The position numbers and the translations under genes are program-made. A stretch of DNA of 64,000 nt from Halapricum desulfuricans (lineage in GTDB: Archaea; Halobacteriota; Halobacteria; Halobacteriales; Haloarculaceae): positions 1,116,001-1,180,000 of the forward strand of contig NZ_CP064791.1 in NCBI RefSeq assembly GCF_017094465.1, in the 5' to 3' direction. A model generated the notes under the pieces. The model was not told the DNA's origin and did not search any database. It saw nothing but the letters and a program-made list of their open reading frames with translations. Shown piece after piece: positions 6,952-62,238 of this stretch (position 1 is its first letter; every line of letters begins with the position of its first letter).

Positions 6952-7030
6952 GTTTCAGACGGACTCTTGTGGGGTTGAAGCGCGCCGACGGGCTCGCCAA
7001 AGCCACGCCAGACGAGTTTCAGACGGACTC
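6952..7030. CRISPR. degenerate single-spacer CRISPR remnant (type I-B-like haloarchaeal repeat)
   Basis: A full 30-nt repeat at 6952-6981 begins GTTTCAGACGGACTC and ends GGGGTTGAAGC, matching the well-known haloarchaeal repeat family (GTTTCAGACGAACCC...GTTGAAGC). After a 34-nt spacer (6982-7015) the first 15 nt of the repeat recur exactly (7016-7030). The sequence then diverges into CGCCAATATC, so the second repeat is truncated. Spacer length is within the haloarchaeal range. No cas genes or further repeats are visible nearby. It lies between the RHH/PIN pair and the truD stop, so it is best read as the eroded end of an old array or a solo CRISPR-like unit. Confidence 0.75.
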
Positions 7031-13602: not shown

Positions 13603-14430
13603 ATGGTACACAGCGACTGGGGAGACTGGCTCCCGCGTGCGATTGAGGACGCTGATCCCGACGGCGTCGCGATCTGGTATCTCGGCTGCAACGGCTTCGC
13701 TCTCAAGGCCGACGACGGGACGACGCTGTTCGTCGATCCCTATCTCGGCACTGGTGATCCGCCCCGAACAGTCCGGATGATTCCGGTACCGTTCGATCCC
13801 GAGGACGTCGGTCCCGTCGACGCGGTACTGGCCACTCACGAACACAGTGACCACGTCCACGGCGAGTCGACCGCGCCACTCCTCGCCGATTCGGACGCAT
13901 CCTTCTACGCACCGGACGACAGCCTCGCGGTCGCACGCGAGGCGGGCTGGGACGATCGGTGGGATCTCGATACCGATCAGTACGTCGAGGTCGAGGACGG
14001 CGATACCTTCGAACTCGGATCGCTGACGGTCAACGTCGAGCCCGCGAACGACCCGGACGCGACCCACCCTGTCGCCTACGTTTTCGAACACGACGCCGGA
14101 ACGTTCGTCCACGGCGGCGACGCCCGTCCCGGGGCCTTCGAGTCCGTCGGCGAGACCTACGACATCGATGTGGGGGCACTGGCGTTCGGCAGCGCCGGGA
14201 TGATTCAGGACAAACAGACTCGCGAACCCAAATACACCAAGTGGTACAACGACGAAAACGAGATTATTGAGGCCGCGACCGAGCTCCAACTTGAGACGCT
14301 CGTGCCGACTCACTGGGATATGTGGAAAGGATTGAATGCCGATCCAGCCGTTCTGCATCACCATGCTCGGAGTTTCGAGTATCCCGAGCAGGTCAACGTC
14401 ATCGAGATCGGCGATCGATTCGACCTGTAG
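13603..14430 (+). CDS. metallo-beta-lactamase-fold hydrolase, UlaG-like
   Basis: 275 residues. After an N-terminal segment, VAIWYLGCNGFALKADDGTTLFVDPYLG matches the UlaG-like branch of the metallo-beta-lactamase fold. The metal motif THEHSDHVHG gives His79, His81, Asp83 and His84; VHGGDARPG supplies a further His/Asp, and PTHWDMWKG a late His. The family includes lactonases and other hydrolases, so the substrate is unknown. The last 34 codons (14329-14430) are duplicated 182 bp downstream. The first 35 bp of this tail are identical to the copy while the rest differs at 14 positions, suggesting the 3' end was exchanged by recombination. Confidence 0.85.
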   Translation: MVHSDWGDWLPRAIEDADPDGVAIWYLGCNGFALKADDGTTLFVDPYLGTGDPPRTVRMIPVPFDPEDVGPVDAVLATHEHSDHVHGESTAPLLADSDASFYAPDDSLAVAREAGWDDRWDLDTDQYVEVEDGDTFELGSLTVNVEPANDPDATHPVAYVFEHDAGTFVHGGDARPGAFESVGETYDIDVGALAFGSAGMIQDKQTREPKYTKWYNDENEIIEAATELQLETLVPTHWDMWKGLNADPAVLHHHARSFEYPEQVNVIEIGDRFDL

Positions 14431-14455
14431 GGCTGGGGCGGGGCGGTCTTTTTCC

Positions 14456-14501
14456 CCACGTTTTTGCGCGAGTGACCGGCGGGAACGAGCGGAAAAAGTG
14501 G
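14456..14501. repeat. 46-bp inverted-repeat element between duplicated gene ends (T-run/A-run type)
   Basis: Arms CCACGTTTTT and AAAAAGTGG flank a core containing GCGAGTG, GGAACG and GAGCG. A further CTTTTT lies just upstream (14448-14453). The layout closely parallels the two 61-bp elements downstream of argF (61074-61134 and 61241-61301), where arms CCAGCTTTTT/AAAAAGGTGG enclose a similar core when read in gene sense. It may act as a terminator in either direction. Its place exactly between two copies of a gene's 3' end is what stands out. Confidence 0.6.
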
Positions 14502-14510
14502 TCTCGGAAG

Positions 14511-14612
14511 GGATTGAATGCCGATCCAGCCGTTCTGCATCACCACGCCCAGAGCTTCGAGTACCCCAACCAGGTCAACGTCGTCGAGATCGGCGACCGG
14601 TTTAATTTGTAG
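14511..14612 (+). pseudogene. duplicated 3' end of the metallo-hydrolase gene (34 codons)
   Basis: A 102-bp copy of 14329-14430 ending at the same stop codon. It encodes the same tail with four amino-acid changes (Arg/Gln, Glu/Asn, Ile/Val, Asp/Asn); most other differences are synonymous, showing that both versions were once under coding selection. It has no start or upstream coding part. The identical first 35 bp followed by a diverged 67 bp marks a recombination boundary. It is probably what is left of an older allele or paralog. Confidence 0.85.
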
Positions 14613-42863: not shown

Positions 42864-43778
42864 TCACCGACCGCCGCGAGCGTGCGACGGTGGGCCACGT
42901 CGACGGTCGTCGTCTTCGGTTTCATCGTCGCTCGACGGACCCATGTCTCCAGGTGGACCCTGAGTCACGTTCCCGGACGGCCCCCGGGTCGTGTTATCGG
43001 ACGGACCAGCACCTTCAGGCGGGCCCTGGGTCACGTTCCCGGACGGCCCCCGGGTCGTGTTTTCGGACGGGCCAGCGTGTTCTGGCGGGCCCTGAGTCTT
43101 GTTTTCGGGCGGACCAGCGTGTTCGGGCGGGCCCTGGCCCGGGTTGAACGTCGTCACGAACGACGAGACGGTCTGGCCCATCGGGCCGGAGACGTTCTCG
43201 CTCATCACGGTCTGGACGAACGCGCCGACGTAGAGCCCGAACGGTTCGCTGTCGTTGACCGTGACGTTGCTGTGGTCGACTTCGCCGTCGTCGATGGAGA
43301 CGTCGAGGTCGAGGTCGAACAGCCGATCGGCTTCCCCATCAGTTTCGTTGGTGTCACGGTCGCCAGTCTCGTTCTCTAGGTCATCATCCTCGCTCTCGTT
43401 TACGTCACGCTCGTCTGTCTCGTTCTCAGCAATCGATTCCGCGATCAAATCGGCCGTCGTCGTGGCGGAATCGTTATCAACAGTGGCCGTGACCGTGACC
43501 GTCACGTTCTCGTCCGGTGCCGACAGTTCGACGAGGCCCTCGTCGTCTGTCGTGTAATTACCGGCCTCTTCGTACGTCGTATTTCCATCAGCAACAGTCA
43601 CGTTCGCGTCGGCGACGGCAGTACTGTTTTCAGTACTGTGCTCCGTCACCGAAACCGTGACGTCGTCGCCCTCCTGAGTCACCGACACATCCAGTCCATC
43701 CGCGGCCGCAGCTGGCCCGACGACGGAGAGGGCCACGACGGCGACCACGGCAACTGTTAGAAGCTGTTTCGCGTGCAT
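42864..43778 (-). CDS. secreted protein with Gly-Pro-rich, sequon-rich C-terminal repeats
   Basis: 304 residues. There is a Sec signal peptide (KQLLTVAVVAVVALSVVGPAAA, cut near residue 26) but no lipobox or C-terminal anchor. The mature part starts with a beta-type region (DGLDVSVTQEGDDVTVSVTEH) and has a very acidic linker. It then has a tandem block at about 42938-43140 built on a 22-residue unit with QGPPE, AGPS, NTT, RGPSGNVT. At least a dozen N-x-S/T sequons make heavy N-glycosylation likely. The tail is RRRGPPSHARGGR. Function is unknown; a surface or matrix protein is the natural guess. Confidence 0.7.
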   Translation of the reverse strand: MHAKQLLTVAVVAVVALSVVGPAAAADGLDVSVTQEGDDVTVSVTEHSTENSTAVADANVTVADGNTTYEEAGNYTTDDEGLVELSAPDENVTVTVTATVDNDSATTTADLIAESIAENETDERDVNESEDDDLENETGDRDTNETDGEADRLFDLDLDVSIDDGEVDHSNVTVNDSEPFGLYVGAFVQTVMSENVSGPMGQTVSSFVTTFNPGQGPPEHAGPPENKTQGPPEHAGPSENTTRGPSGNVTQGPPEGAGPSDNTTRGPSGNVTQGPPGDMGPSSDDETEDDDRRRGPPSHARGGR

Positions 43779-59342: not shown

Positions 59343-59560
59343 ACTACCCTCCCCTACTTCGCTCGGGGGCAATGGCCCCGCTCGCTTGTTGAGGGAAGGG
59401 CTTTCGCGTGGACTCCCGTTCTATGCCTCAGCTGAGGCAGGAGGGTTGTACTCCCCACTCACGTTCAGCGTCCCGCGATCTGCTCACGGCTTCGCCGTTC
59501 GCATGGTCCGAGGGATCTCCGATCCCTCGCTATTCAAGCGCACGTCTACAGGTGCGCCTC
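59343..59560 (-). ncRNA. probable omega RNA (reRNA/sotRNA) of the tnpB element
   Basis: TnpB guides derive from the 3' end of tnpB plus the right end of the element, with the flanking DNA as guide. Here the RNA would run leftward, overlap the last ~75 bases of tnpB, fold into hairpins around 59424-59439 and 59345-59401, and take its guide from the 3' end of the PAC2 gene. Sense overlapping transcripts of IS1341-type tnpB genes are documented in Halobacterium salinarum. Exact ends are inferred. Confidence 0.45.
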
Positions 59561-60740
59561 CGTCGTCTGCGTTTTGCCGACGTTGACGAGACGCGGAGCG
59601 TCTCGTTCGCACACCAGAAATCGAAGATTTCTGGGGACGCCGGAGATACTGAAGGCCGATGTTTTTCGCCGCGTTGTAGTCGGCGTGGTTCTGGTAGCCG
59701 CAATCCAGACACTCGAAGTCCTCACCGTCGCGGTTATCATCGTGGGTAAACCCACAGGTCGAACACCGCTTCGAGGTGTTCCGTGGGTCCACCTGGACGG
59801 CCTCGATGCCCTGCTCTCTGGCTTTATATTCGACGTACTCGTAGAGGCGGCGGAACGCCCACAGATGGTGCCACGACGCCTGTGGGACGTTCTCACGAAT
59901 GTCGGTCAGGTCCTCGAATACGATATGCGAACAGTCGTGTTCGACAGCTTCGGCTACAATTTCGTTGGCGACACGATGCAGGAATATCTCGAAGCGTCCG
60001 TCCTCCTTGCGCTCGACACCTGCTATCGCGTCGTGTGCCGCCCGTGTTCCACACTGCTGGAGGTCGCCCCGCCGCTGTTCGTACTCTTGCTTCCAGTGGG
60101 TGAACTCGTCTGCCGACCAGAACCGTCCGGTCGAAGCGACTGCGAGTTGGTTCACACCGAGGTCCACACCGAGGACTGTTCTGTGCCCGGTGGTGGGTTC
60201 GGTGTCGTCATCCTCTTTGAGCATCGACGCATGGAGATACCAGTCACTGTCGCGCCGATGTAGTGTTGCCCGCCGAAACTCGTAGTCCTCGTTGGCGACG
60301 TACTTCGTCGGCGGTGTCTTGGGATTTTCAGGGAGAATATAATCGCACTCGATTCGCCCGTCCGGTGTCGATAGCGAAACGTGGTCGCGGTGGAACGTGG
60401 CACTTCGCTTGTCGTAGACGGCGGTATCCGCCGTGAATTTCGGACGGGACGTATCTTGGTCGTTTTTGAGCCGTTCGACGCCGCTCTTGATGGATTCGAC
60501 GGCCTGATGAATCCCTTTCTGGACGAGATTCGCGGTCAACTCCGTGTCCTCGCGTAGCTGGTCGTACAGCGCATCTTCGGCCTTCGCCTTGGATGTGACG
60601 TGGTAGCCGTCGTCACCGTGCCAGCACCACTCGCTCGCGGTGTTGGAACAGTATTTGAATTGCTCGATAGTCTCCCGCAGGTGTTTATCCGCGCCTTCGG
60701 GCGTGTCGAGCTTGATAACGGCGGTACGACGGTACTCCAC
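59484..60740 (-). CDS. tnpB: TnpB RNA-guided nuclease of an IS1341-type element
   Basis: 418 residues. RuvC residues are all present: Asp193 in GVDLGVNQLAVAS, Glu276 in HIVFEDLTDIREN, Asp354 in NHADYNAAKNIG. The zinc ribbon has Cys326/Cys329 and Cys344/Cys347. The N-terminal REC/WED part (MEYRRTAVIKLDTPEGADKHLRETI) is complete, so this is an intact enzyme. TnpB proteins are omega-RNA-guided DNA nucleases, ancestors of Cas12. The C-terminal 50 residues after the catalytic Asp are Arg/Ser-rich and overlap the RNA-coding part. Confidence 0.93.
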   Translation of the reverse strand: MEYRRTAVIKLDTPEGADKHLRETIEQFKYCSNTASEWCWHGDDGYHVTSKAKAEDALYDQLREDTELTANLVQKGIHQAVESIKSGVERLKNDQDTSRPKFTADTAVYDKRSATFHRDHVSLSTPDGRIECDYILPENPKTPPTKYVANEDYEFRRATLHRRDSDWYLHASMLKEDDDTEPTTGHRTVLGVDLGVNQLAVASTGRFWSADEFTHWKQEYEQRRGDLQQCGTRAAHDAIAGVERKEDGRFEIFLHRVANEIVAEAVEHDCSHIVFEDLTDIRENVPQASWHHLWAFRRLYEYVEYKAREQGIEAVQVDPRNTSKRCSTCGFTHDDNRDGEDFECLDCGYQNHADYNAAKNIGLQYLRRPQKSSISGVRTRRSASRQRRQNADDGGAPVDVRLNSEGSEIPRTMRTAKP

Positions 60741-60977: not shown

Positions 60978-61398
60978 CGGTCGCTCGTCCCTCGCGACCG
61001 GTCAGGACTGCTCGGACAGCCACACCAGCAGTCCCTTCTGGGCATGCAGCCGGTTCTCCGCCTGGTCCGGCAGCCACCTTTTTCTCGTCGGGTTTCGCTC
61101 ACTCCGTTCGCGAACCACTCCTCGAAAAAGCTGGAGCAAAAAGCCGGTCGCTCGTCCCTCGCGACCGGTCAGGACTGCTCGGACAGCCACACCAGCAGTC
61201 CCTTCTGGGCATGCAGCCGGTTCTCCGCCTGGTCCGGCAGCCACCTTTTTCTCGTCGGGTTTCGCTCACTCCGTTCGCGAACCACTCCTCGAAAAAGCTG
61301 GAGCAAAAAGCCGGTCGCTCGTCCCTCGCGACCGGTCAGGACTGCTCGGACAGCCACACCAGCAGTCCCTTCTGGGCATGCAGCCGGTTCTCCGCCTG
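60978..61398. repeat. perfect 167-bp tandem repeat (2.5 units) carrying the 3' end of argF
   Basis: Units start at 60978, 61145 and 61312. The first two are identical over all 167 bp; the third is cut at 87 bp, where it runs into the intact argF gene. Each unit holds the last 21 codons of argF with its stop, a CCGGTCGC/GCGACCGG terminator-like hairpin, and (units 1 and 2) an inverted-repeat element at 61074-61134 and 61241-61301. Perfect identity means the expansion is recent or kept uniform by conversion. No other gene lies between argF and the IS element. Confidence 0.95.
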
Positions 61399-62238
61399 AT
61401 CCCAGACGATTGCGTTGTCGCTCTCGACGACCTCGTCGGTCACCTCTTCGCCGCGATGTGCCGGCAGACAGTGCATCAGCTTCCGGTCGCCGACGAGCTC
61501 GGTCGTCACCTGAAAGCCGTCGAAGGCGTCGAGTTTCTCCTCGCGCTCGTCCTCTTCGCCCATACTGACAAACACGTCTGTGTAGACGACATCCGCGCCC
61601 GCGACCGCAGCCTCGGGGTCGTGGGTCGTCTCCGGGGCCGTTCCGAGTTCCGCGGCCCTATCGAGCACCTCGGCGTCAATCCCGTAATCCTCAGGCGTCG
61701 CAACGGTGAGCTCGAGTCCGACCATCGCCGCGCCGAGCACGAACGACTGGGCGACGTTGTTACCGTCACCGACCCACGCAACCCGGACCTCGTCGAAGCC
61801 GCCGAACTGTTCGCGGATCGTCAGTAGATCCGCCAGCGTCTGGCAGGGGTGGGCCTCGTCAGTCAGTCCGTTGACGAAGGGGACGGTCGCGTACTCGGCC
61901 AACTGTTCGGCGTCCTCGTGGTCGAACAGACGGGCCATGATCACGTCGACGTACCGTGAGAGCGCTCGGGCGGTGTCTTTGATCGGCTCGCCGTGGCCGA
62001 GGTGGATGTCGTCCGGACCCAGGAAGATCGCGTGGCCACCCAGCTGTGTCATGCCGGTCTCGAAGGAGACGCGGGTTCGGGTGCTGGGCTTCTCGAAGAT
62101 CATCCCGAGCGTCTGGTTGTCGAACGGTTCGTCGTCGGTCCCGGCCTCGTGGGCGGCCTTGCGGTCGGCCGCGCGGTCGAGGACGGTCAGCAGTTCGTCC
62201 GGCGAGAGGTCGTCGATGTCGAGCAGGTGGCGTGGCAT
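61336..62238 (-). CDS. argF: ornithine carbamoyltransferase
   Basis: 300 residues. The carbamoyl-phosphate loop STRTR (52-56) is in FEKPSTRTRVSFE, HPCQTLADLLTI is the second substrate site, and HCLPAHRGEEV (about 263-273) the ornithine-binding loop. It forms citrulline from ornithine and carbamoyl phosphate in arginine synthesis. It is the last gene of argD-lysK-argF, starting 1 bp after the lysK stop. Its final 21 codons are repeated twice more downstream; the gene itself is intact and ends LLVWLSEQS. Confidence 0.96.
   Translation of the reverse strand: MPRHLLDIDDLSPDELLTVLDRAADRKAAHEAGTDDEPFDNQTLGMIFEKPSTRTRVSFETGMTQLGGHAIFLGPDDIHLGHGEPIKDTARALSRYVDVIMARLFDHEDAEQLAEYATVPFVNGLTDEAHPCQTLADLLTIREQFGGFDEVRVAWVGDGNNVAQSFVLGAAMVGLELTVATPEDYGIDAEVLDRAAELGTAPETTHDPEAAVAGADVVYTDVFVSMGEEDEREEKLDAFDGFQVTTELVGDRKLMHCLPAHRGEEVTDEVVESDNAIVWDQAENRLHAQKGLLVWLSEQS

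Follow-up and report, generated by a model that had tools for sequence, protein, structure and literature searches.

The window, that is, the whole stretch of 64,000 nucleotides of Halapricum desulfuricans DNA that was analyzed, contains two unrelated loci at which a small structured element lies between a gene and a direct copy of the end of that gene. The first locus has the following features.

13603-14430, plus strand: gene A of locus 1, encoding a metallo-beta-lactamase-fold hydrolase (Pfam Lactamase_B_2, E = 1.3e-17)
14324-14430, plus strand: in-gene 3' end that was duplicated (direct repeat with 14506-14612)
14449-14501, plus strand: divergent member of the element family, with T-run, hairpin, A-run and GTGG (model R1, 24.8 bits)
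14506-14612, plus strand: copy of the hydrolase gene end, coding-like by its codon-position differences, with TAG at its end

The second locus is an array on the minus strand.

61336-62238, minus strand: gene A of locus 2, argF, encoding ornithine carbamoyltransferase (Pfam OTCace and OTCace_N, E < 1e-51)
61312-61402, minus strand: in-gene argF 3' end and terminator hairpin, the duplicated segment (direct repeats)
61241-61309, minus strand: element copy 1 behind argF (model R1, 87.3 bits)
61145-61235, minus strand: argF end and hairpin, copy 2 (direct repeats)
61074-61142, minus strand: element copy 2 behind argF, identical to copy 1 (model R1, 87.3 bits)
60978-61068, minus strand: argF end and hairpin, copy 3, followed by a tnpB-bearing region and no element (direct repeats)

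Direct repeat comparison showed that the last 107 nt of the hydrolase gene recur at 14506-14612 with 86% identity, the differences at codon positions 1, 2 and 3 numbering 2, 1 and 8. The intervening element is a weak, divergent match to the covariance model (24.8 bits). It is assigned to the family because in a congener (G004, L236) the orthologous hydrolase gene has a duplicated end and a canonical element whose junction (GTGGTCTCGGAA) is the same. The earlier note had claimed that the spacers behind the hydrolase gene and argF share order, arms and core words and that each is directly followed by a copy of the gene's end. Both statements were confirmed, with the G004 orthologue placing the two spacers in one family; the units of the argF array are 98.9-99.6% identical to one another.

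Behind argF, the order on the minus strand is element, end copy 2, element, end copy 3. The duplication of argF ends was thus read correctly, but there are three ends, not two. A gene for a TnpB-type protein with a Cas12f1-like TNB domain (window 59487-60740, minus strand) adjoins the array. In the congener G003, a single argF end is followed by the same downstream sequence as the third copy in H. desulfuricans, and because of this shared sequence, insertion of the tnpB region may have deleted the last element of the array. The possibility was considered that the G003 site is a pristine empty site. This was dropped, since its single end meets the same tnpB-adjacent sequence; an element there may have been cut by the insertion, or an array may have collapsed. 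Elsewhere in the window, a single match to the Rfam CRISPR-DR24 repeat was observed at 6952-6981 on the plus strand.

In the sense of gene A, the full element reads AGCATACG, hairpin H1, CGTTTCAC, hairpin H2, TTTTT, a spacer (GGTCCAG or CCCCACG), TTTTT, hairpin H3 and AAAAAG(G)TGG, and is about 125-160 nt long. The core had been identified in the earlier note, but the left limit had been set too far to the right, as the AGCATACG-hairpin-CGTTTCAC-hairpin portion lies further left. The H3 arms are invariant (GAG(Y)GG...CCCGA) and contain tandem G.A mismatches and one bulged pyrimidine, while the tip is variable. A kink-turn in the H3 inner loop was considered and rejected on sequence inspection, an uninterrupted helix with tandem G.A pairs and a single bulged base being a better fit. 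Terminal inverted repeats are lacking (the left end is AGCATACG and the right end G(G)TGG), and the inverted arms are those of the inner hairpin only. In many copies, the left end runs into the stop codon upstream and contributes its final letters (AG in TAG, A in TGA). Stem covariation was evaluated in 90 distinct sequences and gave 208 cells changed on both sides compared with 78 when shuffled, and a score of 0.300 compared with 0.076 shuffled and at most 0.047 slid. Calculation with DNA parameters showed that the top-strand H3 hairpin is the more stable in 103 of 114 elements. Rfam gave no match over the elements in the window or at seven loci. Since T-runs are present in both directions and T5C terminates transcription efficiently in Haloferax (PMC7237163), a role as a two-way terminator is probable, as predicted from the T-runs and the position of the element.

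When the DNA of the argF unit was used to search the H. desulfuricans genome, 11 places were found. The element lies behind unrelated genes at these places, and at several of them the end of the respective gene is repeated after it. The pattern TTTTTN{4,5}GAGYGGN{8,38}CCCGA had 21 matches in this genome and its reversed control had none. A covariance model, R1, was built from eight element copies and identified 33 copies in the genome at E < 0.01, in agreement with the proposal that a small element is dispersed at the 3' ends of genes. Of 59 genomes from the family and order scanned with the same model, 52 carried the element, in 1-44 copies each. In a phylum-wide draw of 197 genomes, all 25 genomes with matches belong to the order Halobacteriales, and the element was absent from all of the at least 163 genomes outside it. 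Exact matches to the core occur in Halarchaeum, Haloarchaeobius, Halegenticoccus, Halorhabdus and Haloparvum, among other genera. The element is an order-specific dispersed family of Halobacteriales. An element-like match was also noted on plasmid 2 of Natronococcus occultus (L345, 45390-45466), at two places on this haloarchaeal plasmid. A virus origin was considered and rejected: the only viral match (L293) is a chance 18-mer with none of the remaining element around it. A phage match, partial and in an unannotated record, was not taken as a sign of such an origin.

The position of the right end was classified in 123 non-redundant copies. It joins a direct copy of the 3' end of the upstream gene after 0-10 nt in 45 and lies within 12 nt of a convergent stop codon in 38 (within 5 nt in 32 of these). 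In nine others it was called as a tRNA 3' end. The 31 unclassified copies include several further tRNA ends, convergent stops cut by the sequence edge and weaker gene-end copies. The right end is therefore placed non-randomly, at gene-end copies or convergent stops, contrary to the random positions that the earlier note had named as a refuting case. The note had also proposed to test whether the gene end reappears after each match; it does so at the 45 copies but not at the roughly 60% without duplication, which are flush with a convergent stop or a tRNA end. At seven loci (L055, L056, L010, L128, L130, L132 and L233), partial tRNA 3' ends comprising the T-arm and acceptor were seen to the right of the element, followed by a hairpin (GAAGACGGTCCTGCTCGCT..GCGCGGGCTGCGACTTC or GGTCACTYC..GTTCCCT) and then by a second T-arm-like sequence, GGTTCRAATCC. 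These hairpins may belong to another small element, one by which tRNA ends are duplicated.

In 48 of 125 instances, about one being expected, the alignment score between the 300 nt before and the 300 nt after the element was higher than in 99% of mismatched pairs. Tight direct repeats, defined as at least 35 nt with at least 85% identity and a period of up to 450, were then scored in 269 kb of fetched flanks. Of 39 found, 38 span an element (five were recognized by hand), and the sole exception is a pair of related genes. The suggestion that the element is recombinogenic is borne out by both measurements. The only other such repeats in the window are a 52-bp direct repeat of 81% identity at 42978-43137 (period 108), with no recognized element, and further internal repeats of low identity at 46.6-47.8 kb.

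In essentially all of 44 non-redundant cases, the repeat runs through the stop codon and mostly begins 30-225 nt before it. Its length varies from about 30 to 260 nt, and there is no short target-site duplication of fixed length. The point within the gene at which the copy starts, p1, has no motif, so the idea that the element targets gene sequence found no backing. The right joint, on the other hand, is fixed at GTGG plus either 0 or typically about 4 nt of filler (mode 4 nt). One-sided repeats abut the right of the element in 46 cases and the left in one. In the 44 cases, the in-gene and outer copies show 19, 12 and 100 differences at codon positions 1, 2 and 3 rather than the ratio nearer 1:1:2 expected of a decaying outer copy, indicating that much of the divergence lies between coding alleles. 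At two proS loci (L057 and L058), the outer copy keeps the stop codon and the immediate neighbor of the convergent gene, and the in-gene end is fused to the element. The same genes are affected with different copy starts in different taxa, namely argF (in Halapricum and Haloparvum), nuoI, hisH, a gene ending in VERTPVA, and gatB (in Halapricum, Halorhabdus and others; this name and hemE below are presumed). The duplication of gene ends at the element is a recurrent and seemingly undescribed genome rearrangement.

The explanation tentatively favored, although it falls short of being probable, is that hairpin H3 is a hot spot for duplications formed by aborted repair copying and end joining. From the structure of the loci we infer a break, copying from a template and end joining. 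A double-strand break would occur at a random point p1 within the last 30-225 nt or so of gene A. The left end would invade a homologous chromosome carrying A followed by the element, haloarchaea being polyploid and able to exchange DNA, and copy the end of A together with the element. Immediately beyond H3, the nascent strand would fold into the H3 hairpin with its tandem G.A mismatches and leave the template 0-6 nt beyond GTGG. It would then be end-joined, without homology, to the opposite end of the break, again at p1, giving A, the element, a second A end and the original downstream DNA. If the template were a sister that already carries an element, a tandem arrangement (A, element, A', element, B) would result. 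Later homologous recombination between the repeats could homogenize the units, expand them, as at argF and in arrays of six, or remove them.

Several features are consistent with this repair model, among them the excess of flanking direct repeats, the allelic-type divergence of the copies, the lack of a motif at p1, the empty site of L087 described below, the greater similarity of repeats within a species than between species, and the tandem arrays. The duplicated ends at hemE of G003 (L103) and at nuoI of G001 each lie between two elements with unlike hairpins, as expected if the template was foreign. The single nuoI element of G003 corresponds to the outer element of G001, suggesting that a new element was added upstream of the older one together with a second gene end. 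The asymmetry of one-sided repeats between right and left, along with the more stable top-strand H3 in most elements, supports repair synthesis that aborts past H3. Furthermore, the order of gene A with the end of one allele, the element, the end of the native allele and native downstream DNA fits coupled homologous and end-joining repair, in which one joint would be homologous, one illegitimate and the broken segment duplicated, provided that repair synthesis regularly aborts just beyond H3; repair of this kind producing proximal duplications has been described in vertebrates (PMC2671141). However, the model does not explain well why the element lies within 0-5 nt of convergent stops and leaves the short filler unexplained. 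It would also have to be supplemented by another means of dispersal to account for the near-identical elements at unrelated genes.

At the gatB locus L087, the outer copy runs into native DNA and the in-gene end is altered, while a sister genome, G009 (L297), has a contiguous, uninterrupted site. In G069, the gatB unit was deleted and left a trace. A foreign donor allele was considered for L087 and set aside; the altered end is common to G078 and G069, and the left joint possibly lies later in the gene. The gene of L108 likewise runs contiguously into its downstream DNA in G003 and G005. The elements of L094 and L099, at unrelated genes in sister species, are 96% alike, matching from H2 to H3 and differing in H1, and L121 is an inverted pair of elements that are 98% alike. 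Such similarity at unrelated gene ends suggests at least occasional movement of elements, or of their right halves, from one locus to another. The earlier suggestion of mobility is thus supported in part, by the near-identical elements at non-homologous genes (L094/L099 and L121) and the empty site in G009. Inverted pairs of similar elements, 0.5-1.5 kb apart, were observed to flank short stretches in L121 (1579-2679), L148 (1502-3094) and L137 (1541-2183) and could be cassette-like units.

These observations bear on the main rival of the repair model, a dedicated mobile element whose enzyme would insert it at gene 3' ends by staggered cuts 30-225 bp apart, with gap filling producing a very long target duplication of variable length that leaves the gene whole. 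Such an element would install a two-way terminator at gene ends by a new insertion mechanism for which no enzyme is known. It would accommodate the empty site, where both junctions are seen, the close similarity of elements at unrelated genes, the fixed right and variable left ends, and the clean insertions of the full element between nearly identical repeats (L076, L078 and L125). However, the ends are not inverted repeats (AGCATACG compared with GTGG), and known target-site duplications are usually short and fixed in length. The H. desulfuricans genome has no reverse transcriptase and none of its five Y1 transposases lies beside an element. Additionally, divergence of the allelic type between the two copies is not predicted. 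This explanation is possible but rather unlikely.

The repeats show concerted evolution, those within one species being more alike than orthologues between species. The argF joint is shared by H. desulfuricans and G001, and the repeats differ at 1 position in 67 within the former, compared with 8-9 differences between the species. When the copies were compared with congeners to identify the native one, they proved to be homogenized within species. Tandem arrays of two to six units were found, including a near-perfect array of about six 154-bp units of gene end and element (L337, G105:C2:818300-820900). Exchange between repeats explains the homogenization, expansion and loss of units. The argF junction GGTGG/CTGCCGGACCAGG is identical in another genus (L342), indicating that some copies are old or were transferred and need a reason to persist. 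A pair of divergent elements, present in H. desulfuricans (L043, 1019290-1019688) and G004 (L247), has a spacer that is by eye more alike between these two genomes than the flanking genes are; the stops there are TAG, and those of element-less congeners TGA. This pair was likely transferred between species by recombination.

The tandem arrays, the T-runs that match the haloarchaeal terminator signal (PMC7237163) and the roughly 60% of copies that lie between convergent stops with no duplication would also be expected of ordinary convergent-gene terminators, the tandem copies arising by slippage or unequal exchange and the element marking GC-rich, slip-prone hairpins. This account is improbable, and slippage is disfavored as the source of the duplications, as it leaves unexplained the fixed right junction, the two different elements around one duplicated end (L103 and nuoI), the native DNA behind the outer copy and the near absence of such repeats elsewhere in the 269 kb. 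An attC-like site, at which a tyrosine recombinase would recognize the folded strand and join gene ends at the right end of the element, would be in keeping with the imperfect hairpin with its bulged pyrimidine, conserved mismatches and variable tip, the exchange point at one foot and the flush stop codons. However, the GTTRRRY core is missing at the right end, which reads AAAAAG(G)TGG, the joints vary by 0-10 nt and the partner site p1 has no motif, making this very improbable. Retro-insertion, in which an RNA ending at the right end of the element would be reverse-transcribed at a nick, has in its favor that a constant right end, combined with a left end and a duplication length that vary, is the signature of target priming, but it is scarcely to be expected, as the H. 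desulfuricans genome encodes no RVT_1 protein and there is no poly-A or other RNA hallmark.

The element thus represents a family of predicted two-way terminators spread through a haloarchaeal order that was missed by Rfam and is absent from the papers searched, and at its defined hairpin gene ends have been duplicated time and again. If the repair model holds, the loci naturally document the way in which broken archaeal chromosomes are mended. The duplications supply markers for recombination between species and account for odd tandem gene tails that are possibly misread in annotation, and the elements are compact candidate two-way terminators for haloarchaeal genetics. If the process is instead driven by an enzyme, it would be a new mode of DNA insertion that spares the target gene.

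Among known systems, the attC sites of integrons are folded imperfect palindromes with an extrahelical base and a variable tip that lie next to stop codons. The haloarchaeal element differs in having no core site at its right end. The open-access literature searched contained no described element bordered by duplicated gene ends, as the earlier note had stated for its author's knowledge. The elements of PMC10969869 are likewise short, non-coding, multicopy and structured and have both empty and filled sites; the haloarchaeal element, in contrast, lacks the terminal inverted repeats and the short target-site duplication of fixed length that mark a MITE, its duplications of 30-225 bp being variable, and none of the five Y1 transposases of H. 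desulfuricans lies beside a copy. The intrinsic T-stretch terminators of Haloferax volcanii resemble it in having T5C runs downstream of genes, sometimes after hairpins, but neither a conserved three-hairpin, two-way element nor duplicated gene ends were reported in that study (PMC7237163). The vertebrate duplications attributed to synthesis-dependent annealing and end joining are also proximal and of similar size, with a median of 147 bp and with filler and microhomology at the joints; they are scattered, whereas the haloarchaeal ones always have one joint at a defined hairpin (PMC2671141). The nearest described counterpart is SPRITE, which with RUP and BOX is one of the small dispersed hairpin repeats of Streptococcus pneumoniae (PMC3049150). 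SPRITE is bacterial, has a single T-tract direction, and has neither a reported gene-end duplication nor an established target duplication (PMC3049150). However, it is terminator-like with AAAA/TTTT ends, occurs 30 times and lies preferentially near the 3' ends of genes (PMC3049150), and the haloarchaeal element has the properties of a terminator-like dispersed repeat of this type, being multicopy, structured, non-coding, furnished with a T-tract and located near gene 3' ends.
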